Origin: Candidatus Zipacnadum vermilionense
GTDB lineage: Bacteria; Armatimonadota; Zipacnadia; Zipacnadales; Zipacnadaceae
Length of the DNA stretch: 64,000 nt
Assembly: GCA_029821755.1 (NCBI GenBank)
Contig: JALGSV010000005.1
Location: 62,001-126,000 of the forward strand
Reading direction: 5' to 3'
Both the position numbers and the translations under genes were made by a program. The notes beneath the pieces were generated by a model, which was not told the DNA's origin, did not search any database, and was given only the letters and a program-made list of their open reading frames with translations. This document shows, one piece after another, positions 5,363 through 52,791 of this stretch. Every line of letters starts with the position of its first letter. The first letter of the stretch is position 1.

Positions 5363-5927
5363 ATGACTGCTGGAGTATACGTGCTGCTCCACCTGATCGC
5401 GCTAGCCGCGGTACTCACTTGCCCCGCCCTTGCTGCTCCTCGTCCTGCCGTCCTCGCCCTCTCCCCCGGCACCGTAGATGGCTAGGGGATCAAGACGCTT
5501 GACTACGCCCCCGAGCGGTCGCGCCAAGACTGGGAGGCCGCCGGCCTGGAGAAGGGCTCCCATGTGGGCTGGGAAGACCTCACTCTCGACTACCTCAAGT
5601 AGTTCAACGCGGTAGTCCTGTATGATGATGGCCTCCAACCCGGAGGGGCCCTCACCGGAGGTTCAGAAGAGCGTGGACATCCTCCGCCAGTATGTCGAGC
5701 AGGGCGGCGGCCTCTTCATCACCAACGGTGTCTACTGGGCCAATGAATTCCCCACGACCAACGCCCTCCTGGCCGTGACCGGGGCCCGCATGCGTGACGA
5801 GCTGGTCCGCGACGACCAGAACCTGGTGAAACTCAAGTCCGGCATCAACCTCTGCTGGACCGACGCGCTAGCCCAGTCCCCCCTCACCGAGGGCGTCTCC
5901 GGTCTCTTCTACGGCGCGGACTTCTAG
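5363..5927 (+). pseudogene. Decayed secreted protein gene with two amber codons and a frameshift
   Basis: A frame opens at ATG 5363 with a clear signal peptide (hydrophobic core ending CPALAAP). It is interrupted by TAG at 5483-5485 (context VDG-stop-GIKTLDY) and again by TAG at 5600-5602 (YLK-stop-FNAVVLYD). About 25 bases later the coding sense moves by one frame into SPEVQKSVDILRQYVEQGGG, then LFITNGVYWANEF, and ends at 5927. The last part resembles a ThuA or glutamine-amidotransferase-like fold (a 'line up and display' GGGLFITNG segment), as found in GH42 trimerisation domains. Both stops are one transition away from Trp or Gln. TAG is an ordinary stop elsewhere in the window, so this is decay rather than recoding. 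Confidence 0.6.
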
Positions 5928-6000
5928 GGACCCGGCTCCCCCACCACCAACCCCCTGTCGAGGTGAGTCCCGACTGACAGGTGGGGGTGTAGGGCGCGGC

Positions 6001-6088
6001 TTCCGCGTGGCGCGGGCTTTCTATCCCGTGCAGGACACCGCATGCCCCGCGGAGGGCGGGCTAGAAAGCCCGCCCCACGCGGACGGAA
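6001..6088. repeat. Paired palindromic REP-like element, copy 1
   Basis: Two inverted GC-rich palindromes built on GCGGGCTTTCTA/GCCCGC flank a spacer containing CCGCATG, with GCGTGG and CCACGC at the outer ends. Nearly the same 88-base arrangement recurs at 57174-57260 and, with slight changes, at 23381-23456. It fills most of the gap between the decayed gene and the AAC(3)-like gene. Confidence 0.75.
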
Positions 6089-6091
6089 TCT

Positions 6092-6529
6092 CTACATCGT
6101 GTCCAGCAACCTCCAAAACGCCCCCGCGGTCCGGCGGAAGGCCTCTACGCCCGGCTCCGGCGAGCGCAGGGCCAGGACTCCCTTGTAACCGCGGCAGCGC
6201 AGGATGGAGATGATTTCCTTCACTTCGCCGTTGCCCCGTCCCGGAAGGGCCGGGGTGCCGTCGGCTAGCGCGTCGTCGGCGTAGACGTAGGCGGTTCGCC
6301 GCCGCAAGTCACCGCGGTAGAAGATCTGCAGGAAGGGATGCTCTCCCGCCCCGGCAAAGCGCGCGGGACTGAAGGCCAACGGCGGGTCTGCGGTGTCTCC
6401 TGCATACAGCCCCCGGTAGAAGCCGGCGGTCTCCTCCGTATTCTGGATGTATACCGTTAGCCCGCTAGCCGCCAGCTCGGAGGCAGCCTCGTACTCCTCG
6501 CGGTCGCCTACCGGCAGAATCAGCGGCAA
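6092..6529 (-). CDS. Sugar isomerase-like TIM-barrel C-terminal part, separated by frameshift
   Basis: This frame continues the AAC(3)-like gene upstream after a one-base shift at the run of six C (6549-6554; six G on the coding strand). Removing one G joins GDGVTGG to GLAERLGLPLILPVGD and restores one frame. The visible part has the strand-helix rhythm of a sugar-phosphate isomerase/AP-endonuclease-2-type barrel: LTVYIQNTEET, then GRGNGEVKEIISIL and GYKGVLALRSPEPG near the end. The start of this barrel (AAVTAEIAEDPAEIWAAL, GISALEI) lies in the upstream frame, so the two frames encode one fusion protein. A separate translation from ATG 6529 would lack the first barrel strands. Confidence 0.6.
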   Translation of the reverse strand: MPLILPVGDREEYEAASELAASGLTVYIQNTEETAGFYRGLYAGDTADPPLAFSPARFAGAGEHPFLQIFYRGDLRRRTAYVYADDALADGTPALPGRGNGEVKEIISILRCRGYKGVLALRSPEPGVEAFRRTAGAFWRLLDTM

Positions 6530-7553
6530 CCCCAGCCGTTCGGCCAGGCCCCCCGGTCACCCCATCGCCAAAGGTCCCCCGCAGCGCCACGATCCGGAAG
6601 CCCTCTGGTAGCGCATGCCCCCAGCGGTTGTACTCCTCGCCAGTGATCTCCAGCGCCGAGATACCTTCCGTCCGCAGCGCCGCCCAGATCTCCGCCGGGT
6701 CCTCGGCGATCTCGGCAGTGACGGCCGCCAGGGTGAAATCCTCCTGCGCCAGGCGCGCCGCTTTGGCACTCCCCGCCTGGCTGGCGCTAACGGCCCCCAG
6801 CGCCAGAAAATCCCTGTCGCTCAGCGGCGAGAGCCCCAGTATCTTCCGCTGAGTCACGCAGTCGGCGCAGGCGGGGTTGTCACAGAGCATCGCCGCGCCG
6901 TCCATCAGCTGACACACCGCCCGCCCGATGCACCCTACTTGCATGACTCCCCACTCGCTAAAGAGCACGTCCATCGCCAGGAAGTTGCGGTGCGGCCCGG
7001 CCATGGCCGCGATGTGCAGCGCCACGACCTCCCCGTTGTCGGCCACGTAGCTGCTCTCGATATTCTGCAGATATGCCGCCCCGGCCAGGGCCTCGGCCGT
7101 GTGCAGCGTCGTATTGCGATCCTGGTCCACGCCTATGAAGAGGACCTTCCCACCGCTGGTAGCCAGGCGGTGGTAGGGCGTGCCCTCCCCGTAAGCAGTC
7201 GGCGCTTGCTCATGGTCCGCGATCAGCTCGGCAGCCCCCTGGCCAATTGCCGCCACCGAGTGGGAGGGGTGCAGACTGCGCACCGCCTCGGCGCGCCGCC
7301 AGAACTTGTCGGGAATCTGCCCCAGGCTGGTCGGCGTGCGGCGCCTATCGAAAGGCTGCCGACCACCGAAGGTCGGCACAACCACTAGCCCTGCCGACCC
7401 CACCGCCTCCAGCAGCGCGTCGATCACGGTCTCCGCCCCACCTTCCACGCGCCCCAGGGCAGAGAGCGAAGAATGCACCAGCACACGGTCGCCGACTGCC
7501 AGCCCCAGGGCCTGCAGTCCGGCGACGATATCGGCTCGAGTAAGGTCAGGCAT
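6465..7553 (-). CDS. AAC(3)-family N-acetyltransferase-like protein, N-terminal part of a frameshifted fusion
   Basis: The first 260 or so residues match the aminoglycoside 3-N-acetyltransferase (AAC(3)/YokD) fold: VGDRVLVHSSLSALG, VVVPTF, HPSHSVAAIG, then HTAEALAG. Family members acetylate amino groups using acetyl-CoA, but many homologues sit in sugar loci and are not resistance enzymes. A cluster of cysteines (CDNPACADC, residues about 225-235) is unusual. From about residue 268 the sequence changes to the first strands of a TIM barrel. That barrel continues out of frame in 6092-6529, so the residues after about 333 in this frame are frameshift junk. The G homopolymer suggests either a recent mutation or an assembly error. 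Confidence 0.75.
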   Translation of the reverse strand: MPDLTRADIVAGLQALGLAVGDRVLVHSSLSALGRVEGGAETVIDALLEAVGSAGLVVVPTFGGRQPFDRRRTPTSLGQIPDKFWRRAEAVRSLHPSHSVAAIGQGAAELIADHEQAPTAYGEGTPYHRLATSGGKVLFIGVDQDRNTTLHTAEALAGAAYLQNIESSYVADNGEVVALHIAAMAGPHRNFLAMDVLFSEWGVMQVGCIGRAVCQLMDGAAMLCDNPACADCVTQRKILGLSPLSDRDFLALGAVSASQAGSAKAARLAQEDFTLAAVTAEIAEDPAEIWAALRTEGISALEITGEEYNRWGHALPEGFRIVALRGTFGDGVTGGPGRTAGVAADSAGRRPRGVRGCLRAGG

Positions 7554-7707
7554 GGCTTCCCCCGTAAGACGCAGCGCGCTGCGCTCGATACGCAGCGAGG
7601 GGCAATTCGCTTATGGGTCCCAGATTCCCTGCGCTACGCGCCCTGGGAGGATTCGGGTCGTCCCACCGGGAAGTGAAGTAGCCACCGCTGACCCAAGGAG
7701 TACAACT

Positions 7708-9165
7708 GTGCGCATTCTCTATCTCGATCTCGACACCCTGCGCCCCGATCACCTGGGCTGTTACGGCTACCACCGCAACACCTCGCCCAATCTGGACGCC
7801 CTCGCCCAGCAGGGCACGGTCTTCACCAACTGCTACTGCTCGGACGCCCCCTGCCTACCCTCGCGGGCGGCGCTGATGACCGGCCAGTTCGGCCTCCATA
7901 CCGGCGTCGTCGGCCACGGCGCCACTGCCGCGGACATGCGTCTGGAGGGCTACTCCCGCGACTTCCACGGCCGCCTCGCCCGCGAGAACCTCCCCGCCAT
8001 GCTGCGCCAGGCCGGCCTGTACACCGCCTCCATCAGCCCCTTCGCCGAGCGCCATGGCGCCTGGTGGTTCAACGCCGGCTTCAACGAGATGCACAACACC
8101 GGTAAGGGGGGGATGGAATCGGCCGAGGAGATCACTCCCACCGTCCTGCGCTGGATAGCGGCCAACGCCGGCCGGGAGGACTGGTTCCTGCATGTCAACT
8201 ACTGGGACCCGCACACCCCCTACCGGGCGCCTGAGGAATTCGGCGATCCCTTCGCCGACGACCCGCTGCCGGAGTGGCTGACCCCGGAGATCATCGCCTA
8301 CCACCGCACTCTGGCCAGCCCCCATGGCGCCCAAGAAATCAGCATGTACTCCAACGAGGAGTCGCCCCAGTATCCGCGGCATCCCGGCGAGGTCCGGGAC
8401 CTGCGCGACATGCGCCGGCTCATCGACGGCTACGACTGCGGCCTCCGCTACATGGACGAGCACATCGGGCGGCTGCTGGCGGCGCTGGACGAGCAGGGCG
8501 TGCTGGAGGACCTGGTGATCATCGTGAGCGCCGATCACGGCGAGAACCTGGGTGAGCTGGGCATCTACGCCGAGCATGCCACCCCCGACTACGCCACCGC
8601 ACGCCTGCCGCTACTCGTCCGCTGGCCCGGCCTGCCCGGCGGGCGCACCGACACTGGCCTGCACTACAACCTCGACCTGGCGCCCACCCTGGCGGAGATG
8701 CTCGGCCGGGAGGCGAAGCCCTCCTGGGACGGCCGGAGTTGGGCACCGGCGCTCCAGCGGGGGGAGGACTGCGGCCGGGAATACCTGGTGCTCAGCCAGT
8801 GCGCTCACACCTGCATGAGGGGCGTGCGCATGGGCCCGTGGATGTACTTGCGCACCTACCACGACGGCTACCGGCTGTTCCCCCAGGAGATGCTCTACGA
8901 CATCGAGCAGGACCCGCATGAGCAGCATGACCTGGCCCCCGCCCAGCCCGAGGTCTGCCGCGAGGCGGTCTGGCGACTCAACGAGTGGCACGATGCGATG
9001 ATGCAGTCCATGCCCTACGCCACGGACCCGCTCTGGACGGTCATGCGCGAGGGTGGACCCTTGCACACCCGGGGCCACCTGGCGGCCTACGTCGAGCGCC
9101 TGCGCGCCACCGACCGCGCCGACAAGGCCGAGGCCCTCCTCCAGCGGCACCCGACGGAACTCTAG
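7708..9165 (+). CDS. Type I sulfatase (formylglycine-dependent)
   Basis: A 485-residue protein. I chose GTG 7708 because AAGGAG lies 7 bases upstream and the product begins directly with the sulfatase core (RILYLDLDTLRPDHLGCYG). The signature C49-L-P-S-R53 followed by AALMTG marks the Cys that is converted to formylglycine. Metal-binding aspartates appear at DLDTLRPD and in SADHGENLGELG. No signal peptide is visible, so it probably acts inside the cell. It hydrolyses sulfate esters, presumably on a sulfated glycan fragment; the exact sugar is unknown. The next gene, 24 bases downstream, encodes the maturase that would make the formylglycine. Confidence 0.92.
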   Translation: MRILYLDLDTLRPDHLGCYGYHRNTSPNLDALAQQGTVFTNCYCSDAPCLPSRAALMTGQFGLHTGVVGHGATAADMRLEGYSRDFHGRLARENLPAMLRQAGLYTASISPFAERHGAWWFNAGFNEMHNTGKGGMESAEEITPTVLRWIAANAGREDWFLHVNYWDPHTPYRAPEEFGDPFADDPLPEWLTPEIIAYHRTLASPHGAQEISMYSNEESPQYPRHPGEVRDLRDMRRLIDGYDCGLRYMDEHIGRLLAALDEQGVLEDLVIIVSADHGENLGELGIYAEHATPDYATARLPLLVRWPGLPGGRTDTGLHYNLDLAPTLAEMLGREAKPSWDGRSWAPALQRGEDCGREYLVLSQCAHTCMRGVRMGPWMYLRTYHDGYRLFPQEMLYDIEQDPHEQHDLAPAQPEVCREAVWRLNEWHDAMMQSMPYATDPLWTVMREGGPLHTRGHLAAYVERLRATDRADKAEALLQRHPTEL

Positions 9166-9189: not shown

Positions 9190-10410
9190 ATGCTATCTTT
9201 CTCCCTCCTCATCAAACCCGCTTCCGCCGACTGCAACCTGCGCTGCGCGTACTGTTTCTACGCCGCCAAGACCGCCCTGTATCCCGGCCCGCGCCGCATG
9301 TCGCCGGAGGTACTCGACCGCCTCGTCTCCTCCTACATGGCCACCGACCAGCCGCAGTACGTCTTCGGCTGGCAGGGCGGGGAGCCGGCGCTGATGGGGG
9401 TGGAGTTCTTCCGCGAGATAACCCGGCTGCAAAGGCGCCACGGCCGCCGCGGCTCGGTGGTGACCAATGGCTTCCAGACCAACGGCACGTTGGTGGACGA
9501 CGACCTCGCCGCCCACCTCGCTGAGTACCGCTTCCTGGTCGGGGTGAGCCTGGACGGGCCCGAGGAGCTGCACGACCACTACCGCCGCGACCCCCAGGGC
9601 GGCGGCTCGCACGCCGCGGTGCTGGCGTGCCTCGTCCGCTTACGCCGTCACCGCGTTGAGTTCAACGTCCTCACCCTGGTAACCAGCGCCAACGTCGGCC
9701 GCCCAGCGGAGCTGTACCACTACCTGACCGACCAGGGCCTCCACTACCAGCAGTACATCCCCTGTGTGGAGTTCGACGAGCAGGGCCAGCCTCTGCCCTG
9801 GACCATCACCCCGGAGCAATGGGGCGACTTCCTCTGCGGCGTGTTCGACGAGTGGAAATCCAGCGACATCTCTGTGCGCCTGTTCGATGCCCTGCTCTGC
9901 GAACTGCAAGGTCAGCCAGCCCCGTTGTGCCACATGGGTACCGACTGTCGGCAATACTTCGTGGTGGAGCACAACGGCGACGTCTACCCCTGCGACTTCT
10001 TCGTCACCCCGGAGACGCGGCTGGGGAATATCATGGAGGACTCCTGGGAGGCGCTGCAAGCGTCAGCGGCGTACCGGGAGTTCGGGGCGTGCAAGGCGCA
10101 GTGGAATGAGCGGTGCGCGAGTTGCGAGTACGTACGCTGGTGCGCGGGGGATTGCCTCAAACACCGCTACCGCACCGGCACCGACCCGCGGGCCCTGAGT
10201 TGGCTTTGCGAGGGCTGGCGGCAGTTCTACCAGCACGCCCTGCCGGAGCTGCGCAAGCTGGCGCAGACCGGGGCGGCCCTGAGTTCGATCCTGCCCGTCC
10301 CCGAACCCCCTCTGCAGTCTCCGCCACCCGATCCCACAACGCCGGTCGCGCGCAACGCTCCTTGCCCCTGCGGCAGCGGGAAGAAGTACAAGCGATGCTG
10401 CGGGCGCTAG
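9190..10410 (+). CDS. Anaerobic sulfatase-maturating enzyme (radical SAM/SPASM) with SEC-C tail
   Basis: A 406-residue radical SAM enzyme that oxidises the active-site Cys or Ser of sulfatases to formylglycine. The AdoMet-binding cluster is C15-x3-C19-x2-C22. GWQGGEP follows, and a SPASM region with two further iron-sulfur clusters occupies about 255-325 (CRQYF, VYPCDFF, CKAQWNERCASCEY, CAGDC). The last 20 residues are a zinc-binding SEC-C motif (CPCGSGKKYKRCC), a common tail on this family. It lies 24 bases behind the sulfatase gene and is probably co-transcribed. Its presence implies that maturation works without oxygen. Confidence 0.92.
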   Translation: MLSFSLLIKPASADCNLRCAYCFYAAKTALYPGPRRMSPEVLDRLVSSYMATDQPQYVFGWQGGEPALMGVEFFREITRLQRRHGRRGSVVTNGFQTNGTLVDDDLAAHLAEYRFLVGVSLDGPEELHDHYRRDPQGGGSHAAVLACLVRLRRHRVEFNVLTLVTSANVGRPAELYHYLTDQGLHYQQYIPCVEFDEQGQPLPWTITPEQWGDFLCGVFDEWKSSDISVRLFDALLCELQGQPAPLCHMGTDCRQYFVVEHNGDVYPCDFFVTPETRLGNIMEDSWEALQASAAYREFGACKAQWNERCASCEYVRWCAGDCLKHRYRTGTDPRALSWLCEGWRQFYQHALPELRKLAQTGAALSSILPVPEPPLQSPPPDPTTPVARNAPCPCGSGKKYKRCCGR

Positions 10411-42133: not shown

Positions 42134-44425
42134 TCACTTCTCGTGGTTGCCCCGCTCCGCCTGGCGGAACACGTCCTTACCCTCCAGGCTCAAGAAACTT
42201 GCGCCCACCGCATTCACCGTCTGCACCGCGCCCTGCACCACGGCCACGTAAGCAAAGCGCGCGTCCGTCGCCAGCCCGCCCTGCTCCACCTTCTCGCCGC
42301 CGGGATTGGCGACCACCCACTCCGTCCAGTCCAGCCCCGAGTCGATTCTCCCCACCGTCACCTCTGGCGTATCCACCAGGAAGTTGATGCCCGCCGGGGT
42401 TGGTTCCGGGACGGCCGGCTGGGCTCCGCCTCCGTTGCGCTCGCTGGTCGGGTAGTGCGGAACATACGCCTCGGTGAACAGCAGCTTCTGCCCGGCCTGC
42501 GTCGCTCCGCGCCAGGTGTACCGCAACTGTCCCGGCACGCTCCTCATATTCGGGTCAGTCGTGCTCCGGTCCACCACCTGCAGCTTGCAGTCCGGCCGCG
42601 GCGAGAAGTACACCCACAGGTCATAGGACGGATTCTTCAGCGGCTGCGGCCAGTACCACGCCCAGGGCCGGTTGTAGAAGGTATTGGCCCAGTGCGTCCC
42701 CACCTGCGGCCCGATGTTCTGCGTGTTGAACACCGAGGCCACCTCCGCCAGGAACCCCTTCTCAAACTCCAGCAGGTCCCGCGTCACCAGGAAGCGGTTC
42801 TTCAGGAACAGGAAGTCGCGGGTGTACTTGACCGGGAAGCCGTTGTAGTTGCTCACTGTGACCGTGGCGAAGGTCGCCCCCTTCAGGTCCGCAAAGACCG
42901 GCACCTCCACCTCCTGATAGTAGGAGTCAGCCAGCCCCGGGTCGGTGTTGAAGCGCAGCGGCGCCGACCCCGACAAATCATTGATGAGCACCCGGTTCTC
43001 CCCCGAGTTTAGCCGGGCCGCCGTCTCGCTGGCCATCGCCAGGCACGACCCCCACCGCGTCATCCCCACGATCCCCGCCGGGTTGAGCGGATCGTGCCGC
43101 GGGAACAGATCCACCAACGCGAAGAAGTCGCCCGGATTCCACCCGCTGCGCAGCACCAGCTTGTTGGGCAGCACCCGCTCCGTAAGCAGCAGGCCACAGT
43201 CCACATTCGCCTTCATCGGATCGGGGTCCAGGTTGGGCAGATGCCGCGCCCCCGCCGCCTTGTTCCGCACTCGCAGCGTCTCGTGGCGGTACAACACCTG
43301 TGACCCACTCTCCGGCGCCATCGGCTTGACACCCTCGTCGCAGAACAGGTACGCCAGCGCGATCTTCTCCGTCCCCCCCGGCCCTAGCAGCATGTAATGC
43401 TTGAGGTACTCCGACTCCTGGTACAGCAGGTAATTCATCAACTTCTGCGCGCCGAACTTGTACCGCCCGTCCTGGGTGTGGGCGGCGAGCAACTCCATGA
43501 TGACCAGTCGGTCGGCCGCATTGGCGTTCCAGCCCCCGTTGCAGCCGTAAGGGATCACCGCACCGTCCGGCGAAATCTCCTGCAACAGCCGGTCCCACAT
43601 CGGCTTTACACCCGGGTCGGTCCATACCGCCTCGTCGCCTTCCAGTTCTGCTCGCAGCGCGATGGCCATCAGGCAGAGGAAGCTGTAGTTCAGGTCGTTC
43701 TGCGCGTAGTCCCGGTACTTCCACCAGTCGTCCTTCACCGTCGCGGCATACTGCTGCCACTCCGCCGCCTCGGGGATGTCCGGGTACCATAGCGCCGTCA
43801 GCCCCTTGCTGGCCCCCTCCGACTGCGCCCGGTGCACCGCGCTGCGCCAGAAGGTCTGCGGCGTATTCCACACGTGCAGGCTGCGCGCATGGAACAACAG
43901 CAGATCCCGGAACCACGTGTCCCGTTGCTCGTCCAGGATCCCGCCCTGGGTCAGGTAGCGCCGGTACACTCCCAGCAGCATCGGGTCCGGGTTGAAGTAC
44001 GAGTGCCACCCGTCCTGCTTGACCTCCTCCTGCAGGACCCGGTAGTAGTCCTGCAGCCCCACCAGGCACGCCTCCCCCCATTTGGGGTCGCCGGTGTCCA
44101 CGTACTTGGCCAGCAGAGGAAGCAGATGCCGGGGCGCGAAATGCCCATGCTGGGGATGGTCCACGTACTGCAGGTGGCCCGAGTCCTCGATCCACTGCGT
44201 GTAGGTCTGCTTGGTCACCGGTGTCTGCGGGATGGGGTAATGCCGGGCGTCCGGCACCGGCACCCCAAAGTCCCCCACGTCCTTCATGTAGAACACCGGC
44301 GGCCCCACTCGCTCGATGGCAGGCGCTTGCTCCCCACCAGCCGCCACGGAGAAGTCAACCGCCCCGGCCGCCCCGGCGGCCAGCGCGATCAGGAGGCACA
44401 GTACGGCGGTCAGCGGTCTCCGCAT
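42134..44425 (-). CDS. Secreted putative polysaccharide lyase, tandem copy B
   Basis: A 763-residue protein with signal peptide (ALAAGAAGAVDF). It keeps FAPRHLLPLLAKYVDTGDPKWG, GRYKFGAQKLMNYLLYQ, PLRFNTDPGLADSYYQEVEVP, FLFLKNRFLVTRDLLEFEKGF and GTHWANTFYNRP. A Trp/Tyr-rich stretch after this (PWAWYWPQPLKNPSYD) is an insertion not seen in copies A and C, and may alter glycan binding. It starts at ATG 44425, two bases after the stop of copy A, and ends 14 bases before copy C, so all three are one transcription unit. Confidence 0.72.
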   Translation of the reverse strand: MRRPLTAVLCLLIALAAGAAGAVDFSVAAGGEQAPAIERVGPPVFYMKDVGDFGVPVPDARHYPIPQTPVTKQTYTQWIEDSGHLQYVDHPQHGHFAPRHLLPLLAKYVDTGDPKWGEACLVGLQDYYRVLQEEVKQDGWHSYFNPDPMLLGVYRRYLTQGGILDEQRDTWFRDLLLFHARSLHVWNTPQTFWRSAVHRAQSEGASKGLTALWYPDIPEAAEWQQYAATVKDDWWKYRDYAQNDLNYSFLCLMAIALRAELEGDEAVWTDPGVKPMWDRLLQEISPDGAVIPYGCNGGWNANAADRLVIMELLAAHTQDGRYKFGAQKLMNYLLYQESEYLKHYMLLGPGGTEKIALAYLFCDEGVKPMAPESGSQVLYRHETLRVRNKAAGARHLPNLDPDPMKANVDCGLLLTERVLPNKLVLRSGWNPGDFFALVDLFPRHDPLNPAGIVGMTRWGSCLAMASETAARLNSGENRVLINDLSGSAPLRFNTDPGLADSYYQEVEVPVFADLKGATFATVTVSNYNGFPVKYTRDFLFLKNRFLVTRDLLEFEKGFLAEVASVFNTQNIGPQVGTHWANTFYNRPWAWYWPQPLKNPSYDLWVYFSPRPDCKLQVVDRSTTDPNMRSVPGQLRYTWRGATQAGQKLLFTEAYVPHYPTSERNGGGAQPAVPEPTPAGINFLVDTPEVTVGRIDSGLDWTEWVVANPGGEKVEQGGLATDARFAYVAVVQGAVQTVNAVGASFLSLEGKDVFRQAERGNHEK

Positions 44426-44427
44426 TG

Positions 44428-46737
44428 CTAGCCTACCTCCGTATTCCCCCGCTGCGGCGTACGGAACAGGTCCTCACCCTCCAGGGCCGCGAAGGTCGCC
44501 TGCACGCTGCTCACCCGCTGCACCTGCCCCTTCAAGATATCCACGTACAGGTACCGTGCGTCGGTAGTCAGACCGCCCTCGCTCACCTGTCCCCCGCCCG
44601 GATTGCTCACCAGCCACTCCACCCGATCCGGATCGAGGTTAAACCGCAGCACCGTCAGCTCCAGGGTGTCCTTCAGCGCCTGAATGCCGTCCGCCCCGGC
44701 GCTGCCCACCATGTCCTGCGGACGCGCCGCCCCCGGCGCGTTGGAGTGGATGAGCTGCATGCTCGCCTTGTGCGGGTAGAGCACCTGTGTGAACAGTAGC
44801 TTCTGCCCCGGCTGGGTCACGCCGCGCCAGTTGTAGCGCAGTTGCACCGGCACATCCGCCGCCCGCACATCAATTGCCGTGCGGTCCAGCACCTGGAGCC
44901 GGCAGTCCGGCTGCGGCGCGAACCACACCAGCAGGTCCACCGGCGGGTTGTTCAGGCTGAAGTTGGAGCCCGGCGGGGCGTCGAAGAAGGTATTGGCCCA
45001 GTTGTCGCCCAGTTGCGGCCCCACGTTCTGCGTGTTGTAGATGGGCGCCACCTGCGCCAGGAACCCCTCCTCAAACAGCGGCATGTCCCGCGTCACCAGG
45101 AACCGGTTCTTCAGGAAGAGGAACTCCCGCGTGTACGTCACCGGGAACCCCTGGTAGTTGGTCACCTTAACCGTCGCGAAAGTGGCCCCGGCCGAATCCG
45201 CGAACTCCGGCACCTCCACCTCCTGGTAGAACTTGTCCCGCAGGTCCGGATCGGTGTTGAACCGCAGCGGCGCCGCGCCCGACAGGTCGTCTATCGCCAG
45301 CCGGTTCTCATCCGACGACCCCTTGGCGTTGATCGGCATCCCCAGGCACGCCCCCCACCGCGTCATCCCCAGAATCCCCGGCGGGTTGAGCGGGTCATGC
45401 CGCGGGTACAGATCCACCTCCGCGAAGAAGTCTCCGGGGTTCCAGCCGCTGCGCAGGACGAGCTTCCACGGCTTGGTCCCCGGCGTGTTGATCATCAGAC
45501 AGTCAACGTTGTTGTGCAGTGGGTCCGGATCCAGTGGCGCCTGCCCGAACTTCGCGAAGTACTTGGCCGCCGCGTCCTTGCTCGCAACGCGCAGCATCTC
45601 CCGGTGGTACAGCACCTGCGACCCCGCCGCCGGCTGCACCGGCTCGATCGTGTCGTCCGCGAGCAGGTACACCACCGCGATCTTCTCCGTACTGTACGGC
45701 CCCATCAGCATGTGGTTCTGCTTGATCATGGGTTGCTGGTAGCGCATGTAGTTGAAGATGCGGCTCGCCGCGAAGCGGTACCGCCCGTCCCCGGTGTACT
45801 TGGCGGCCAGCTCCAGGGCCAACAGGCGCGAGGCTCCGGCTTGATTCCACCCGTCGTGCGCCCCGTAGGGGATGTTCGCCCCATCCGGCGACACCTCGTA
45901 CATGAACCGGTCCCAGATCTTGCGCATCTCCGGATCGGTGAAGAACTCCGTGTTCCCGGTCAGCTCCGCCCCCAGCAGCAAGGGCGGCATCACGCACAGC
46001 ATGTAGTAGTTGGAGTCATTGACCGGGTTGTCCCGGAAGCGCCAGAAGTCGTCGTAGACCTCGTCGGCGTACTTACTCCACGCCGCCGCCTCGGGGATAT
46101 CCGGGTACCACAGCACCGCCAGCTGCTTGGCTATCCCCTCCCCCTGCGCGCGATGCATCGGCCCTCGCCAGAAGTTCTGCTCCCCGCCCCACACCCGCAT
46201 ATTGCGGTTGTGGTACAGCACCAGGTCCTTGAACCAGGTGTCCTTCTCCGGATCCAGCAACCCGCCTGCTATCAGATGCCGCCGGTACAGGCCGATGTAC
46301 CCCGGCTCGTCGGTGAACTGCATAACGTAACCGTTGGCCGCTACGTCCTCCTTGAGAGCCTCATGGTAGACCTTGAGCATGTTGAGGCACGCCTGCCCGG
46401 CCGCGCGATCGTTGTCGTGCACGAACTTAGCCAACACCGGCGTGAAGTGGCGGGGCCCATAGCGACCGTGATTGTGAGGGCTGAGCGCGTAGTCGAAATG
46501 CTCCGAGTCCACCAGCCACTGGTAGTAGTCCTCTCGCGTCACCGGCGGCTGGGGGATCGGGTTGGCCTCCGGATCCGGCGCTGTATAGCGTCGCACGTCC
46601 TGGTGGTAGTACACGGGCGGCCCGAGCTTCTCCGGCGTCACCTCCGCCGGCGCGTTGGACACCGAGAAATCCCCGGCCAACCCCGGGACCGCCAGCATCG
46701 CCAGCATCGCGCAGAAGGCTACAGACTTGTTGAGCAT
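44428..46737 (-). CDS. Secreted putative polysaccharide lyase, tandem copy A
   Basis: A 769-residue protein starting at ATG 46737 (GGAGG upstream), signal peptide ending PGLAGDF. It shares YGPRHFTPVLAKFVHD, GRYRFAASRIFNYMRYQ, PLRFNTDPDLRDKFYQEVEVP, FLFLKNRFLVTRDMPLFEEGFLAQ and GDNWANTFF with the other copies. At residue about 500 it and copies B and C read RHDPLNPxGIxGMTRWG, a phrase specific to these three and absent from the 13918 and 17190 members. It is the first gene of the operon and is divergent from the radical SAM unit, whose first gene starts 140 bases away. Confidence 0.72.
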   Translation of the reverse strand: MLNKSVAFCAMLAMLAVPGLAGDFSVSNAPAEVTPEKLGPPVYYHQDVRRYTAPDPEANPIPQPPVTREDYYQWLVDSEHFDYALSPHNHGRYGPRHFTPVLAKFVHDNDRAAGQACLNMLKVYHEALKEDVAANGYVMQFTDEPGYIGLYRRHLIAGGLLDPEKDTWFKDLVLYHNRNMRVWGGEQNFWRGPMHRAQGEGIAKQLAVLWYPDIPEAAAWSKYADEVYDDFWRFRDNPVNDSNYYMLCVMPPLLLGAELTGNTEFFTDPEMRKIWDRFMYEVSPDGANIPYGAHDGWNQAGASRLLALELAAKYTGDGRYRFAASRIFNYMRYQQPMIKQNHMLMGPYSTEKIAVVYLLADDTIEPVQPAAGSQVLYHREMLRVASKDAAAKYFAKFGQAPLDPDPLHNNVDCLMINTPGTKPWKLVLRSGWNPGDFFAEVDLYPRHDPLNPPGILGMTRWGACLGMPINAKGSSDENRLAIDDLSGAAPLRFNTDPDLRDKFYQEVEVPEFADSAGATFATVKVTNYQGFPVTYTREFLFLKNRFLVTRDMPLFEEGFLAQVAPIYNTQNVGPQLGDNWANTFFDAPPGSNFSLNNPPVDLLVWFAPQPDCRLQVLDRTAIDVRAADVPVQLRYNWRGVTQPGQKLLFTQVLYPHKASMQLIHSNAPGAARPQDMVGSAGADGIQALKDTLELTVLRFNLDPDRVEWLVSNPGGGQVSEGGLTTDARYLYVDILKGQVQRVSSVQATFAALEGEDLFRTPQRGNTEVG

Positions 46738-46877
46738 AATGAACCTCCAGTAGTCGGGCTCCACCCGAACAGACTTCATTTCCCTCCTCCGGCCCGCCTA
46801 ACCTCCCCTACCCCCGGACGCCCCTCCCTGACCTTCCCCTTGCAGGATTCTCTCGCCTCCACCGCGAAACATGTCTC

Positions 46878-47219
46878 ATGACCATCGTGGCCTACCTTTT
46901 ATCGGCTCTCGTCGGCCTGGGCGGACTCATCTTCCTGCTCGGCTCCGTCCAGGGCCACACCGGCCCCCGCCTCCTCATCGGCCTGGTCCTGCTCGGCGCC
47001 GCCGCGGTTCTTTTCTACCTGGGTCGGATGAAAGCGCCGCAACCTACCCTCATCCAGAAGATCGATCTCACCGGCGATGTCTCCGCCCAAGACCTCAAGT
47101 GCAAGTCCTGCAGCGGCAAACTCGACTCCAAGAGCGTCAGCGTCCAGGCCGGCGCCGTCTTCATCAAGTGCCCCTACTGCGGCGCCCAATACCAGTTGGA
47201 GGAAGAACCCAAGTGGTAA
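46878..47219 (+). CDS. Small membrane protein with zinc-ribbon-like domain
   Basis: A 113-residue protein. Two hydrophobic segments (about 3-24 and 33-48) are followed by a cytoplasm-type tail with C-x2-C (CKSC) and C-x2-C (CPYC) pairs about 22 residues apart, typical of a small zinc ribbon. Its function is not known. The TAA stop at 47217-47219 overlaps the GTG start of the radical SAM gene, so the two are coupled. It may form part of the maturation unit described for the next gene. Confidence 0.7.
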   Translation: MTIVAYLLSALVGLGGLIFLLGSVQGHTGPRLLIGLVLLGAAAVLFYLGRMKAPQPTLIQKIDLTGDVSAQDLKCKSCSGKLDSKSVSVQAGAVFIKCPYCGAQYQLEEEPKW

Positions 47220-48628
47220 AGACCGCCGGGCGGCTGTGGCAGCGCGCCGCCGGCTGGGTGCGGGAGGACTTCCGCTCCGCCGGCGCGCACCTGTCTGCCC
47301 TGCGCACCCCGGCCCCCGCTCCCGGGCTGTACTCCTACCGCTGCGAGACCCCCGCGGGCAAGGTTCGCCTCCATCTACGCCTGCACCCGGACCGCACCGG
47401 CCTGCTCTTCATCAACGCGGTCCAGGCCTTCCACCTGCCTCCCACTGCCGCCGAGATGGCCAAGCACGCCCTGGACGATCTCCCCCGGCCCACTGCTCTC
47501 GCTCGGCTTCAGGCCACCTACCCGCAGGTCCCCGCCAGCGACCTCGCCGCTGACTACGACCGCCTCGCCGCCGCCCTGGCCCGACTCCGGGAGCCTTGCG
47601 ACGAGTGCCCCGCCGGTGTTCTTGGCTTGCCGCAACCGCCGCCCTTCTCTGTCCGCGCCACCGCCCCCTACAAGGCCGATCTCGCCCTCACTTACGCCTG
47701 CAACAACGCCTGCGGACATTGCTACAATGAGTCCGGGCGGACACTGACTCCCGATCTACCCTCCTCCGCCTGGCGCCGTGTACTGGACCAACTGCTGACC
47801 ATCGGCGTCCCCTATGTCATCTTCACCGGTGGCGAACCCACCCTCCGAGACGACCTCCCTGACCTGGTGGCGTATGCCGAGTCGCTGGGGATGATCGCCG
47901 GCCTCAACACCAACGGCCGCCGCCTGTCGGACCCCGCCCTCTGCCGCGCCCTGGCCGAGGCCGGTCTGGACCACGTCCAGATCACGCTCAACTCCGCGCG
48001 CCCCGAGGTGCATGACCGCCTCTCTGGCGCTCCCGCCTGGGCCGAGACCGTCGCGGGAATCCGCCAGTCCCTCGCCGCCGGCCTGCACGTCCTGACCAAC
48101 ACCACCCTCCTGCGCGAGAACGTCGCTGAGGCCACGCACCTGCCGGACTTCCTGCACGGCCTAGGCGTCCGCACCTTCGCCATGAACGGGCTGATCCATT
48201 CCGGCTGTGGCGCGCACTATCCCGGTGCCCTCCCGCCCGGCGAGTTGCGCCCGGTATTGGAGCAGGTCCGCGTCCGCGCCAGTGACCTGGGGATGCGCTT
48301 CCTATGGTACACGCCCACCGAGTATTGCGCCCTGGACCCGGTGGACCTGGGGCTAGGGGTCAAGTCGTGCAACGCCGCCGAGTACTCCGTCTGCGTGGAA
48401 CCCAATGGCGATGTTCTCCCCTGCCAGTCCTACTACCAACCCGCCGGCAACCTGCTGACCGACCCGTGGGAGACCATCTGGGAAAGCGACCTTTTCCGCC
48501 GCCTACGGCACCGGCGCGAGCAACCGGAGGCCGCCGGACTATCGTCCGCGTGCTGGGACTGCGAGAAGCTGACCGTCTGCGGAGGCGGGTGCATGTTGGA
48601 ATTGCCGTCGGGGAGAGAGGCCGAATGA
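47213..48628 (+). CDS. Radical SAM/SPASM protein with PqqD-like N-terminal domain
   Basis: A 471-residue protein starting at GTG 47213, with GGAGGAAG upstream inside the previous gene. Residues 38-125 (LYSYRCETPAGKVRLHLRLH, LLFINAVQAFHL) look like a PqqD-type peptide-binding region. The AdoMet cluster is C163-x3-C167-x2-C170, followed by FTGGEP (204-209). A C-terminal SPASM domain has Cys at 386, 394, 404, 447, 450, 456 and 460. This is the layout of peptide-modifying radical SAM enzymes. The closest plausible substrate in the operon is the Cys-Ala tail of the protein at 50174. Modification chemistry (thioether, epimerisation or other) cannot be decided from sequence. Confidence 0.85.
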   Translation: MVKTAGRLWQRAAGWVREDFRSAGAHLSALRTPAPAPGLYSYRCETPAGKVRLHLRLHPDRTGLLFINAVQAFHLPPTAAEMAKHALDDLPRPTALARLQATYPQVPASDLAADYDRLAAALARLREPCDECPAGVLGLPQPPPFSVRATAPYKADLALTYACNNACGHCYNESGRTLTPDLPSSAWRRVLDQLLTIGVPYVIFTGGEPTLRDDLPDLVAYAESLGMIAGLNTNGRRLSDPALCRALAEAGLDHVQITLNSARPEVHDRLSGAPAWAETVAGIRQSLAAGLHVLTNTTLLRENVAEATHLPDFLHGLGVRTFAMNGLIHSGCGAHYPGALPPGELRPVLEQVRVRASDLGMRFLWYTPTEYCALDPVDLGLGVKSCNAAEYSVCVEPNGDVLPCQSYYQPAGNLLTDPWETIWESDLFRRLRHRREQPEAAGLSSACWDCEKLTVCGGGCMLELPSGREAE

Positions 48629-48822
48629 GCGGCGTCCGCGCCGGGAATCCGTCCCGCCGCCCGGCGGAGACGGGCCGGATTCGCCTGACCCAGCTTCGCT
48701 GGACAGTTCAACACGGCCCCTCCTGGTATCGCGCCCGACGTCACCATCAAATAGAGGTCGCAGCCGACCCGACAGAGGTGAACTCACCGTGCCCCAGCAA
48801 CCCCTACTCGACCGCATCATGA
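48625..48822 (+). CDS. Possible small coupled ORF, 65 residues
   Basis: An ATG at 48625 overlaps the stop of the radical SAM gene (ATGA) and opens a 65-codon frame that reads into the start of the next gene. It has many Arg and His residues and one Cys, and no recognised motif. It could be a translated small protein or just an open stretch; the gap of 160 bases between the two paralogues otherwise shows nothing I recognise. Low support. Confidence 0.2.
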   Translation: MSGVRAGNPSRRPAETGRIRLTQLRWTVQHGPSWYRARRHHQIEVAADPTEVNSPCPSNPYSTAS

Positions 48823-50174
48823 CCGCCATCGGCGCCCGGCCCCGTCGGGGACGCGATCTGGAGCCCGGCATTTACTCCTATGAGCGCCTGGAGGGAGACT
48901 GGCCCACCCGTTTCCATCTGCGCGTGGACCCTGACGAGGGCGGTCTGCTGCTGGCCAACGCCGCCGAGACCGCCTACCTCTCCTCTGTCGGCACCCGCAT
49001 GGCCCGCGACGTGCTGGAGGGACTCAGCGACGAAGACATCTACGGCGATATCCGCGCCGTCTTCCGCCGGGCCAGTCTGGCGGAGATGCGGGCCGACCTG
49101 GCGCAAATCCGCTCCCTGATCGCCGATCTATCCTCTCCCGGCGACAACTACCCTGTCACCGACCTTACCGACGATCAGGTCGCCAACTGGAGCCGTCGCC
49201 TCGCCGCCCCCTTCCGCGCCGACGTGGTCCAGGGCGACCCTCGGACGGGCCGCGAGATTCTCCAGCGCCTCTGGGAGGTGGGCATCCCTCATGTCACCTT
49301 CCTCGTCCGCCCCGAGGCTCCCGCCGACGATCTGCCGGCGTTGATTGAGGCTGCCGAGGACCTCGGCATGATCGCCGGTTTGCGTGCCACCGCCTCCTGG
49401 CTCTCGTCTGATCTGATCCAACGCGCCGCCCTGGCCGGTTTGGACCATCTAGACCTGCTCTACCTCTCGACCGATTTAGCCGCCCACGACGAGCTCTGCG
49501 GGCCGGGCGACCATGCACGGGTGCTGGCGGCCTTCGAGCAGTGCCACCACCTGGAGTTGTGCCCGGTGGCCCAGGTCCCGCTCTACGCCCACAACACCGA
49601 CGGCAACCTGGAGGCAGTCTTCTCCGCCCTCCCGGAGGCCGGCGTGACCAACCTCAGCTTCTTCGCCCTGGCCTGCCCGGATGACGACGCCGCTGCCCAG
49701 GCGGCCGGCGCGCTTCCGGCTCGCGCCTTGCCCCAGGTAGCGCTCAGCATCGCCGAGGCCGCCGAGAGCACCTCCGCCCGCTACCTCTGGTCTCCCCCGG
49801 TGCGCTTCGACAGCCGCCAGCCCTTGGCCGCGCAGCTCCTCGCCGGCCCCCGCACCGCCGGCGACGTGTCCGTACGCGTGGAGGCCGACGGCCGCGTCCT
49901 CCCCGCCCGCGGCGGCCCCACCTCCGTGGGCAACGTGGTGACCGACGCCTGGGAGGAGATCTGGGGCAACGAGTGCTTCCGCCGCTACCGCGAGCGCCTG
50001 CAGGCTCCCACCCGCTGCGCCGACTGTCCCGACCTGACTATCTGCGTCGCTGACTGCCCTAAGAACCCAGAAGGCTGGAGCGACGACACGGGGGAAGTTG
50101 GAGGTCGAAAGTCGGAAGTCGAAAGTGAACGACCGGGAAATGCACCCGATTGCGACTCGGGGGGTGAGGAGTGA
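48789..50174 (+). CDS. Degenerate radical SAM/SPASM paralogue lacking the AdoMet cysteines
   Basis: A 461-residue protein starting at GTG 48789 (AGAGGTG upstream). It aligns over its whole length with the previous radical SAM protein: IYSYERLEGDWPTRFHLRVD, LLLANAAETAYL, then EDLGMIAGL and AAHDELCG. But the segment that holds C-x3-C-x2-C in the paralogue is absent, and GGEP is replaced by RPEAP. The SPASM part keeps only CADCPDLTICVADC, and its first PC-type motif reads LPARGG. It therefore cannot bind the radical SAM cluster and probably acts as a structural or binding partner of the active enzyme. Its stop overlaps the start of the membrane protein by one base. Confidence 0.8.
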   Translation: MPQQPLLDRIMTAIGARPRRGRDLEPGIYSYERLEGDWPTRFHLRVDPDEGGLLLANAAETAYLSSVGTRMARDVLEGLSDEDIYGDIRAVFRRASLAEMRADLAQIRSLIADLSSPGDNYPVTDLTDDQVANWSRRLAAPFRADVVQGDPRTGREILQRLWEVGIPHVTFLVRPEAPADDLPALIEAAEDLGMIAGLRATASWLSSDLIQRAALAGLDHLDLLYLSTDLAAHDELCGPGDHARVLAAFEQCHHLELCPVAQVPLYAHNTDGNLEAVFSALPEAGVTNLSFFALACPDDDAAAQAAGALPARALPQVALSIAEAAESTSARYLWSPPVRFDSRQPLAAQLLAGPRTAGDVSVRVEADGRVLPARGGPTSVGNVVTDAWEEIWGNECFRRYRERLQAPTRCADCPDLTICVADCPKNPEGWSDDTGEVGGRKSEVESERPGNAPDCDSGGEE

Positions 50175-52048
50175 TGAAACGCTATCTTCTGTGTAGCCCG
50201 CGAGCGGTCATCTCTACTCCCCCCTCTCCTGCGAGGAGAGGGGGGCAGGGGGGTGAGGCGGCTCGTATGCTCTGCCTCGCCGTGCTCCTGCTTGTCGGGG
50301 CGACGACCGCCCACGCTGACTACCTCTTCTCCGTCCCCAAGATGGAGATGCGCATCGTACCCCAGCCCGACGCCTCGGTGATTATCTCGTACACCGTGGT
50401 CTTCCAGAACGACCCCGGCGGCGAGCCCATCGCCATCGTGGACATCGGCCTACCCCATGCCGGGTACAGCATCGCCAACATGAAGGCCTCGCTGGAGGGC
50501 AAGCCGCCCACCGACATCCGCAAGTCCACCGAGGTGCCCATCGGCGTCGAGGTCCACCTCTCCAACCCGATCCCGCCGGGGAAGAAGGGCGAGTTCACCT
50601 TCACCTGCACCATGCCCGACCTGGTCTACCAGGATTCCACCAACAAGGACAACGCTTCCCTGCGCATCACCCCGACCTGGTGGGGCGCCGCCTACGTTCG
50701 CGACACCACCGACCTGTGGGTTATCGTGGAACTGCCCCTCAGCGTCACGCCCGAGCAGGTCCTGTACCAGCTCAACCAGCCTTTCAAGAACAAGGGCGTC
50801 GCCAAGTCCAACACCTTCGTCGCCTGGCAGTTCAAGGATACGGCCGTGACGGGCGAGCACATGGTCGGCCTCTCTTTCCCCAAGGGCGACTGGCGCGTGA
50901 TTAGGAGTACCCCCTGGGGCCTGGCCTGGAAGTGGTGGAAGGAGTCCACCGGCGTCCGCATCATCTGGGGCCTCTTCATGCTCGTGCTGGTGGGCATCTT
51001 CTATTTCCGCCTCACCCGCGGCACCGGCTGTCTCCTCTATGTGATTCTGCTGGTTATCCTCTCGATCATCTGGGCTATGTTCCCCGAGCTGGAGGCCCTG
51101 GCGCTACCGGTGCTGGTGACCATCTGGGTCCTGGTCGGCCGTTCCCAGGCTTCCCGTAAGCGGGCTTACCTACCCGCTATTGCCTCTACTCCCGGCGCCG
51201 GCATCAAGCGCGGCCTGACCGTCCCCGAGGCCGCGGTCCTCCTGGAGGTCCCCCTCGGCCGCGTGTTAACCCTGGTGATCTTCGGGATGCTTAAGAAGGG
51301 CTTGCTGGAGCAAGTCCAGGCCGAGCCCCTGGTGGTTAAGCCCGGTTCGGGCTACGAGGGCGACCGCAAGTCCCGCCGTGAGGCCGCCAAGGCCAAGGGC
51401 TCGGTCATCCGCGGCTATGAGCAGGAGTTCATTGAGGCGCTCGCCGCCGCCCCCGGTAAGCCTGTGGAGGAGGTGGCCTTCAAGAAGCCCATGAGGGACC
51501 TCATCAACGGCACCGTCGCCCGCCTGGGTGGTTTCGATCTGGACCAGACCCGCGAGTACTACAAGTCGATCATGTCCAAGGCCTGGGCCGACGCCAAGCA
51601 GATCGGCGACCTGAAGATGCGCACCGACTTCGTGGACGACAACTTGCTCTGGATGATGATGGCCCCGGACTACGGCGATCAGTTCGGCTACTGGCACCAC
51701 CACGGCTACCACTACTCCCCCCGCTGGACCGGCTCTGCCGGGGCCGGTGTTCCTACGCCCGGACCCGTCGCGGTAGGTGGACGTACCTCCCTAAGCGACG
51801 TGGGCGCCTCCTTCGCCGGCTGGGCCGAGAACCTCAGCGGCAAGGTTGCCGGCAGCGTGGACCCGGTGAGCCTGGGCATCGTGGGCAAGCCCGGCCTGGA
51901 CCTCTCCGGCATGGACAAGGTCACCGGCGAGATCCTGGAGTCCATCTCCTCCAGTTCCGGGGGCGGCGGGGGCGGCGGGGGCGGCGGCTGCGCCTGCGCG
52001 TGTGCCGGCTGCGCCTGTGCTTGCGCCTGCGCCGGCGGGGGGAGGTAG
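50174..52048 (+). CDS. Three-helix membrane protein with poly-Gly and Cys-Ala repeat tail
   Basis: Starting at ATG 50174 (which overlaps the preceding TGA) the product is 624 residues. An alternative start at ATG 50267 gives 593 residues and a cleaner signal peptide (MLCLAVLLLVGATTAHA). An extracytoplasmic beta domain is followed by three hydrophobic segments at about 265-330 (LFMLVLVGIFYF, LLYVILLVILSIIWAMF, LPVLVTIWVLVG) and a cytoplasmic helical region. Then come a His-rich stretch (YWHHHGYHY) and a tail of SSSS, ten Gly, and alternating Cys-Ala units with seven Cys, ending GGGR. The topology is DUF2207-like. With an N-out start and three spans the tail would lie in the cytoplasm, where the radical SAM enzyme is. 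Confidence 0.75.
   Translation: MKRYLLCSPRAVISTPPSPARRGGQGGEAARMLCLAVLLLVGATTAHADYLFSVPKMEMRIVPQPDASVIISYTVVFQNDPGGEPIAIVDIGLPHAGYSIANMKASLEGKPPTDIRKSTEVPIGVEVHLSNPIPPGKKGEFTFTCTMPDLVYQDSTNKDNASLRITPTWWGAAYVRDTTDLWVIVELPLSVTPEQVLYQLNQPFKNKGVAKSNTFVAWQFKDTAVTGEHMVGLSFPKGDWRVIRSTPWGLAWKWWKESTGVRIIWGLFMLVLVGIFYFRLTRGTGCLLYVILLVILSIIWAMFPELEALALPVLVTIWVLVGRSQASRKRAYLPAIASTPGAGIKRGLTVPEAAVLLEVPLGRVLTLVIFGMLKKGLLEQVQAEPLVVKPGSGYEGDRKSRREAAKAKGSVIRGYEQEFIEALAAAPGKPVEEVAFKKPMRDLINGTVARLGGFDLDQTREYYKSIMSKAWADAKQIGDLKMRTDFVDDNLLWMMMAPDYGDQFGYWHHHGYHYSPRWTGSAGAGVPTPGPVAVGGRTSLSDVGASFAGWAENLSGKVAGSVDPVSLGIVGKPGLDLSGMDKVTGEILESISSSSGGGGGGGGGGCACACAGCACACACAGGGR
50216..50260. repeat. CCCTCTCC-type inverted repeat inside the N-terminus of the membrane protein gene
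   Basis: CCCCCCTCTCCTGCGAGGAGAGGGGGGCAGGGGGGTGAGG is an inverted repeat of the family seen at 31702 and 37148. It lies in frame between the ATG at 50174 and the hydrophobic core of the signal peptide, encoding PPSPARRGGQGGEA. This suggests it was inserted in the 5' end of the gene. Confidence 0.6.
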
Positions 52049-52086: not shown

Positions 52087-52791
52087 ATGCCCTCAACCCC
52101 GGCCCCTCCCAACCTCCCCGCCTCTGGCCTTGCCGCGGCCCTCTCCTCCTGGCTGGCAGGCCCTCGCGGGCGCGCCCTCCGACGCGCCCGGATCGGTCTC
52201 CGCCACCACGTGCTGGAGGTTGGCTACGGCCACGGCACCGTTACCGGCGAACTCCGCCGACGGGCGGCCGGACCGGTCGTCACCCTCGACCCCCTCCCTG
52301 GCGCTGCCCAGGTTGCCGGCCGAGCCGAGCAGCTTCCCTTTGGTGACTCGTCCTTCGACCTCGTCTTCTTCCAGAACGTCCTGCTCTGGGTCCCTGATCT
52401 CGGCGCCGCCGTGCAGGAAGCCGCTCGCGTGCTGGCCCCCGGCGGCTGCCTGGTGGCCCTGGAGCCGGACTACGGTGGCATGATGGAGCTCCCGCCGTTG
52501 GGGCTCGGCGACCTCTGGCGCCAGGGGCTCACCCGCGCCGGGGCGGACCCCTGTGTCGGCCGCCGCCTCCCCGCCGCCGGCGAGGCCGCTGGCCTGCACG
52601 TCTGGGTGGAACTGGCCCATCTCCCCCAGCCCGCGGACCTCGACGCCCTCCGCCTCTTGGAGGGTCTCCCCTTGAGCGCCGAGGAGCGTGGCCAGGTCGC
52701 TCCGGCCCGCCTCGCTTTGGAGAACAAACAGACCCCCTGGGCAGTCTTTGTGCATGTGCCCTATTTCATCTTGGTAGCCGAGAAGCGGTAA
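52087..52791 (+). CDS. Class I SAM-dependent methyltransferase
   Basis: A 234-residue methyltransferase-11-type protein. Motif I is VLEVGYGHGTVTGEL, the acidic motif is VVTLDPLPG, and LPFGDSSFDLVFFQNVLLWVPD with RVLAPGGCLVALEPDY gives motifs II and III. ATG 52087 lies 38 bases after the membrane protein; no strong ribosome site is seen. Whether it acts on the tail protein or belongs to something else cannot be decided; the target is unknown. Confidence 0.8.
   Translation: MPSTPAPPNLPASGLAAALSSWLAGPRGRALRRARIGLRHHVLEVGYGHGTVTGELRRRAAGPVVTLDPLPGAAQVAGRAEQLPFGDSSFDLVFFQNVLLWVPDLGAAVQEAARVLAPGGCLVALEPDYGGMMELPPLGLGDLWRQGLTRAGADPCVGRRLPAAGEAAGLHVWVELAHLPQPADLDALRLLEGLPLSAEERGQVAPARLALENKQTPWAVFVHVPYFILVAEKR

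Follow-up and report, generated by a model that had tools for sequence, protein, structure and literature searches.

What is the substrate of a radical S-adenosylmethionine (SAM) enzyme that carries an RRE/PqqD-like domain and is encoded beside a large membrane protein ending in alternating cysteines and alanines? The question is raised by a locus of Candidatus Zipacnadum vermilionense (Armatimonadota) situated within positions 62,001-126,000 (forward strand) of contig JALGSV010000005.1, assembly GCA_029821755.1; this 64,000-nt stretch is called the window here and its numbering is used throughout. RRE-bearing radical SAM enzymes have been studied chiefly as makers of small peptides. Five plus-strand genes form the cassette under discussion and encode successively a zinc-ribbon membrane protein, the radical SAM/SPASM enzyme, a dead paralogue of this enzyme, the tail-bearing membrane protein and a methyltransferase. 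A preliminary description of this DNA had correctly placed the first four genes and their strand, and had recognized the C-terminus of the membrane protein as SSSS, ten Gly and alternating Cys-Ala, the last part of which reads CACACAGCACACACAGGGR; it had omitted the methyltransferase gene and missed the sister systems presented below. The whole is best explained by a cassette yielding a post-translationally modified membrane protein, the enzyme acting on its cytosol-facing tail, and we consider this reading probable.

The tail was followed through genomes of two phyla, Armatimonadota and Planctomycetota, almost all of them metagenome-assembled genomes (MAGs), and its DNA pattern was searched within these two. 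The final 17 residues are CACAGCACACACAGGGR in 45 of the 47 complete copies, which span both phyla, and the remaining two copies end in CACACASCACACAGGGR. The 45 identical tails are encoded by 44 distinct DNA versions differing on average at 10.2 of the 17 codons, and outside the tail the aligned proteins share 32-55% identity with the window protein. A peptide that stays fixed while its codons vary points to selection on the tail peptide itself. In the tail alignment Ala and Cys are equally invariant, and the lone Gly and the terminal GGGR vary hardly at all. The tail-encoding DNA pattern is present in 37 of 291 Armatimonadota genomes, once in each except one, and the reversed control pattern had no match in the same 291 genomes. 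The exception (G257, matches on C369 and C1038) has one of its two matches at a contig edge, and either a second copy or a strain mixture is possible. A looser pattern was found in two genomes of a 392-genome Planctomycetota sample, indicating that the tail is rare in that phylum. A search of the organism's own genome for further tail genes with a looser CACACA codon pattern returned one extra match, on contig 33, where no long open reading frame (ORF) reads Cys-Ala as a tail.

The enzyme accompanies the tail protein. Relatives of the latter were detected in 40 of the 291 Armatimonadota genomes and, by a single scan of the whole collection whose sensitivity is limited to close relatives, in Planctomycetota as well. 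Orthologues of the enzyme, defined by at least 46% identity, occur in 36 of the 291 genomes, every one of which lies within the 40 with a tail protein, and they occur in all 10 Planctomycetota tail genomes tested. These counts support the earlier proposal of a tail modified by the radical SAM enzyme, the modification being what we infer from them. At loci with enough flanking sequence, the same-strand neighbors of the tail gene include the enzyme (28/30), the paralogue (36/40), the zinc-ribbon protein (25/29) and the methyltransferase (35/39). The order is zinc ribbon, tail protein, enzyme and methyltransferase in L079 and L080, and enzyme, tail protein and methyltransferase in L130. The pairing of enzyme and tail protein is well supported; these two genes are the core of the unit, and the methyltransferase is nearly always there. 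Across 49 homologous stretches the five cassette genes are the only conserved genes of the region, and no additional conserved ORF of at least 60 residues was found in these 49 loci.

A second, sister system extends this association. Twelve genomes encode a more remote enzyme homologue (30-42% identity) and, where the flank is intact, its neighbor is a DUF2207-like membrane protein ending in Cys-His-Ser-Ala repeats (CHSAC). The DNA pattern of this other tail matches 13 of the 291 genomes, namely the 12 with the sister enzyme and G276. In the enzyme tree the CHSAC enzymes and the paralogues each constitute a clade of their own (100/100 in both cases), the enzymes associated with the alternating Cys-Ala (CACA) tail making up the remainder. 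The distribution of the CHSAC pattern, the neighboring genes and the tree together show that enzyme lineage follows tail type in two cohorts. The CHSAC-tailed proteins lie beside the sister enzyme in L138, L140-L142, L144, L145, L148 and L149. Partners at CHSAC loci include a coiled-coil protein of ~400 residues (L138, L139, L145, L147), an FMN-reductase-like protein (L138, L139) and a membrane protein of ~350 residues (L140, L142, L144, L149).

From its sequence and predicted fold the enzyme looks like peptide-modifying radical SAM enzymes. It combines the features of RRE-type maturases: the CxxxCxxC motif, a SPASM domain scoring above the PF13186 cut-off and an N-terminal RRE domain. Ten Cys residues, three of the radical SAM motif and seven others, are invariant in 43 homologues covering both tail types. 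The AlphaFold2 (AF2) model of the enzyme (mean predicted local distance difference test, pLDDT, 92.7) has SkfB, SuiB and CteB as top fold matches in the PDB. The nearest solved proteins by sequence profile are SkfB (8e-37), PqqE and others including SuiB, with CteB further down, and the epimerase YydG is also among the structural or sequence relatives. The PqqD-like region announced in the preliminary description is borne out by three observations: the confident model places four strands within residues 37-74 and helices at 76-86, 91-101 and 107-124; a profile search matches residues 42-122 to the RRE protein TfuB1 (E 4.8e-4); and the sister enzyme of L138 matches PF05402 PqqD above cut-off (2.7e-8). 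The best NCBIfam matches of the enzyme to curated maturase families reach ~118 bits or less, all under their cut-offs.

The tail protein has a DUF2207-like architecture, and its homology to DUF2207 proteins runs through the CHSAC relatives. Aligned by hhalign, the family of the tail protein and the CHSAC DUF2207 family match with a probability of 99.4 (E 4.7e-22, 387 columns), and the CHSAC relative of L144 scores above the Pfam DUF2207 cut-off (32.5 bits vs 24.4). The window protein itself falls below the cut-off of the DUF2207 model (PF09972), and one of 38 family members reaches E 0.0092. The likeness to DUF2207 comprises an N-terminal beta domain, one or more transmembrane segments, a C-terminal domain and a low-complexity end. 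Typical DUF2207 tails are Gly-rich and are not known to contain Cys. AF2 and hydropathy predict transmembrane helices at about 259-281, 286-302 and 304-331; residues 350-509 are modeled as a folded helical domain, and the end of the chain is predicted to be disordered, with one short helix in the low-confidence region 570-624. Positive residues after the first and third transmembrane helices place the C-terminus in the cytosol; in this predicted topology the beta domain would be outside, the C-terminal domain, linker and tail would be cytosolic, and the tail could be within reach of an Fe-S enzyme. Directly ahead of the Gly run, the disordered linker contains a conserved DLSG.DKV segment, which is a candidate recognition sequence for the RRE domain of the enzyme. 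A fold search with the tail protein returned mainly M1 aminopeptidase and oligosaccharyltransferase domains at a query-normalized template-modeling score of ~0.2, which is uninformative for function. At 50201-50270 the N-terminus of the protein, PPSPARRGGQGGEAAR, contains a short in-frame repeat-like insert, ctcccccctctcctgcgaggagagggggg, seemingly absent from most homologues.

The partner genes and their layout complete the picture (Table 1). The paralogue was called inactive in the preliminary description, and we agree: it retains a SPASM match, gives no Radical_SAM match and, like all 38 of its homologues examined, lacks CxxxCxxC. Most of these homologues retain CxxCx5CxxxC, and the loss of the one motif with the frequent retention of the other suggests a role in binding rather than catalysis. 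The C-terminus of the paralogue (50098-50140, GGRKSEVESERP) also contains a short in-frame repeat-like insert, ggtcgaaagtcggaagtcgaaagt, seemingly absent from most homologues. The zinc-ribbon residues C75, C78, C98 and C101 are invariant in a 21-member alignment. The overlaps of one to seven bases reported earlier are real for two pairs: the GTG start of the enzyme at 47213 produces a 7-base overlap with the zinc-ribbon gene, and the ATG of the tail protein at 50174 overlaps the paralogue stop codon by 1 base. The run is not continuous, as a 160-base gap separates the enzyme and paralogue genes. These two genes abut or overlap without a gap in several homologous loci; L058 (G281) has a ~2.4 kb insertion between them (5384-7757 of that locus) in an otherwise compact cassette.

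Table 1. Features of the cassette, in window coordinates
Feature	Coordinates	Strand	Evidence
Small membrane protein, 113 residues, N-terminal hydrophobic region, C-terminal zinc ribbon, end EEEPKW	46878..47219	+	ORF; 21-member alignment
Radical SAM/SPASM enzyme with N-terminal RRE/PqqD-like domain, putative tail maturase	47213..48628	+	Pfam Radical_SAM 1.2e-24, SPASM 1.1e-9
RRE/PqqD-like domain, residues 37-124	47324..47587	+	AF2 fold, TfuB1 profile match, sister-enzyme PqqD match
CxxxCxxC radical SAM cluster motif (CNNACGHC)	47699..47722	+	C162, C166, C169 invariant in 43 sequences
SPASM auxiliary cluster region, C385 to C403 and CxxCx5CxxxC (C446-C459)	48368..48592	+	Pfam PF13186; C385, C403, C446, C449, C455, C459 invariant
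Dead paralogue of the enzyme, SPASM remnant, without CxxxCxxC	48789..50174	+	SPASM 1.5e-6, no Radical_SAM match; 30% identity to enzyme
DUF2207-like membrane protein, 624 residues: predicted signal peptide, beta domain, 3 transmembrane segments, helical domain, disordered linker, Cys-Ala tail	50174..52048	+	AF2, profile-profile comparison, hydropathy
Conserved DLSG.DKV segment in disordered linker	51899..51952	+	L577, G579, D581 near-invariant, 38-member alignment
Cys-Ala tail, 7 Cys	51989..52045	+	Conserved core = last 17 residues, 51995-52045
Class I SAM-dependent methyltransferase, fifth cassette gene	52087..52791	+	Pfam Methyltransf_11 3.8e-16; invariant EPD.GG motif

These elements can be assembled into a proposed pathway in which the Cys-Ala tail is the likely substrate of the enzyme. 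Insertion of the DUF2207-like protein into the membrane would leave the beta domain on the outer side, with the tail, the linker and the C-terminal domain exposed to the cytosol. Through its RRE-like domain, possibly helped by the dead paralogue in docking, the enzyme would bind the conserved linker segment, after which the radical SAM and SPASM clusters would modify the tail. The likeliest chemistry would be the formation of thioethers linking Cys sulfurs to carbons of neighboring residues, as in SkfB, CteB or QhpD. This guess is made because SkfB and CteB are the nearest relatives and because QhpD offers a precedent for thioethers in a protein subunit; as an argument by analogy it makes a Cys-based thioether cross-link a tentative product, with somewhat less than an even chance of being the right one. 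The probable task of the methyltransferase is a second modification, and the zinc-ribbon protein may have an auxiliary function at the membrane. The likeliest physiological role would be that of a metal- or redox-active tail.

Several points weigh against this pathway. The evidence that the tail is modified is genomic throughout, and metal binding alone could explain the fixed peptide. The co-occurrence of tail and enzyme has a naive Fisher p of 6e-42, a value that ignores shared ancestry. Tail-bearing proteins widespread without a radical SAM partner had been named in the preliminary description as what would contradict its proposal; the survey did not refute the proposal on this count, but returned four tail-bearing MAGs (G005, G264, G274 and G289) with no enzyme detected, also after a second search, all of them fragmented assemblies with contig breaks in or close to the locus. 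Enzyme and tail gene are on separate contigs in G007 and in several Planctomycetota MAGs. The window enzyme has no match to the Pfam PqqD model. Finally, the paralogue is missing in the divergent loci L079, L080 and L130, implying that it is dispensable for the core function.

The alternative that survives best keeps the tail as substrate and changes the chemistry to Ala epimerization, C-C cross-linking or Cys oxidation or desulfurization, with the methyltransferase acting on Cys or on the C-terminal Arg. The invariance of Ala, which would not be needed if Cys alone reacted with distant acceptors, counts here against thioethers; the presence of SuiB (C-C bond) and the epimerase YydG among the relatives of the enzyme, and of a methyltransferase in the cassette, point the same way. 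However, the thioether-forming SkfB is the closest relative in sequence as well as in fold, and the CACA and CHSAC tails, whose spacers differ, are both Cys-rich, having in common Cys and an Ala before most Cys. We regard a chemistry other than thioether formation as rather unlikely. An unmodified tail binding metal or an Fe-S cluster in the manner of a metallothionein, with the enzyme making or inserting something else, is more doubtful still: soft-metal binding is conceivable with six or seven Cys spaced as C-x-C, the cassette encodes a zinc-ribbon protein and CHSAC tails also contain His, but variable spacers would then be expected, whereas almost no variation is seen in the Ala spacers, the single Gly or the GGGR end, and the strict pairing with RRE-bearing enzymes of the peptide-modifying type in two systems also argues against it. 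It is very improbable that the enzyme's target is some other small peptide, as yet unannotated, or a different region of the membrane protein, the tail serving to anchor or recruit: the search for ORFs of fewer than 60 residues did not extend to all loci and the 160-base gap has no assigned function, but that gap is absent from several homologous loci and the 49 loci hold no further conserved ORF of at least 60 residues. Although the sequence is repetitive and GC-rich, a low-complexity artefact or neutral repeat expansion is refuted, with a negligible residual probability, by a peptide fixed over two phyla despite differing codons and by the zero matches of the reversed pattern.

The proposal that the enzyme modifies the tail can be set against known systems. 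Like SkfB, CteB, SuiB and AlbA, the enzyme joins an RRE-like N-terminal domain, a radical SAM barrel and a C-terminal auxiliary cluster domain, and has a Cys-rich putative substrate; SkfB, CteB and AlbA carry an RRE domain, which is N-terminal and peptide-binding in SkfB and CteB (PMC8172795). The substrates of these four enzymes are small leader-bearing precursors, whereas in the cassette a membrane protein of ~600 residues would offer its C-terminus as substrate, the candidate recognition segment sits in an internal linker and thioethers are put forward by analogy. A small Cys-bearing precursor peptide was not found nearby among ORFs of at least 60 residues, and the Cys-bearing element terminates a membrane protein of 624 residues. 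The radical SAM enzyme QhpD, encoded in the same operon as its substrate QhpC, makes Cys thioethers within a protein subunit (PMC7876137); QhpC differs in being a small periplasmic subunit with a cleaved leader and in using Asp/Glu acceptors, which the Cys-Ala tail lacks. The nearest published parallel is the MNIO/TIGR04222 system, in which membrane proteins with Gly-rich, Cys-bearing C-terminal tails adjoin a candidate Cys-modifying enzyme; TIGR04222 proteins are diverse, a quarter being without Cys and a third of the genomes without the enzyme, and their tails are predicted to be periplasmic (PMC12452194). Our system differs in its unrelated enzyme family, radical SAM, and in its predicted cytosolic tail; none of the five conserved cassette genes matches an MNIO model, and the tail protein has no NCBIfam match to TIGR04222 or TIGR04117 at E up to 1. 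TIGR04117, the Cys-Xaa-Xaa-Xaa repeat radical SAM target, has a Cys at every fourth residue like the CHSAC tails, whereas the CACA period is two; it is a small peptide family, and the CHSAC protein, at 13.8 bits, falls short of the TIGR04117 cut-off of 50. Assignment of the window proteins to TIGR04222, DUF2207, TIGR04117 or a curated maturase family was rejected since they fail the models. In open-licence literature, neither the CACA nor the CHSAC tail sequence was found, a text search for CACACA returned unrelated papers only, and no link of DUF2207 or TPM with radical SAM enzymes was encountered.

Other features of the window lie outside the cassette. Directly upstream, on the minus strand (42134-46779), are two similar-looking genes for proteins of 763 and 783 residues with signal peptides; neither gene is conserved together with the cassette. 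At 9232-10158 lies a further stretch resembling radical SAM/SPASM proteins, 25% identical to the enzyme. A defense system was considered and rejected, PADLOC giving only a generic radical SAM likeness to viperin models and a weak methyltransferase match.

The system reads as a form of RRE-guided radical SAM maturation that would be aimed at the tail of a membrane protein. The broader proposal, to which we give close to an even chance, is that such radical SAM systems make up a class in which sister enzymes serve two or more tail types, CACA and CHSAC among them, and build a cross-linked or otherwise remodeled Cys-rich structure on the cytosolic C-terminus of DUF2207-type membrane proteins; the alternating Cys-Ala product would have no known counterpart and may act as a metal or redox site tethered to the membrane. 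Should the tail indeed be modified, the substrate range of RRE radical SAM enzymes would be wider, a compact substrate for new Cys chemistry would be at hand and DUF2207 proteins would gain a functional lead. The parallel with MNIO/TIGR04222, which relies on an unrelated enzyme, suggests that the decoration of Cys-rich membrane-protein tails recurs.

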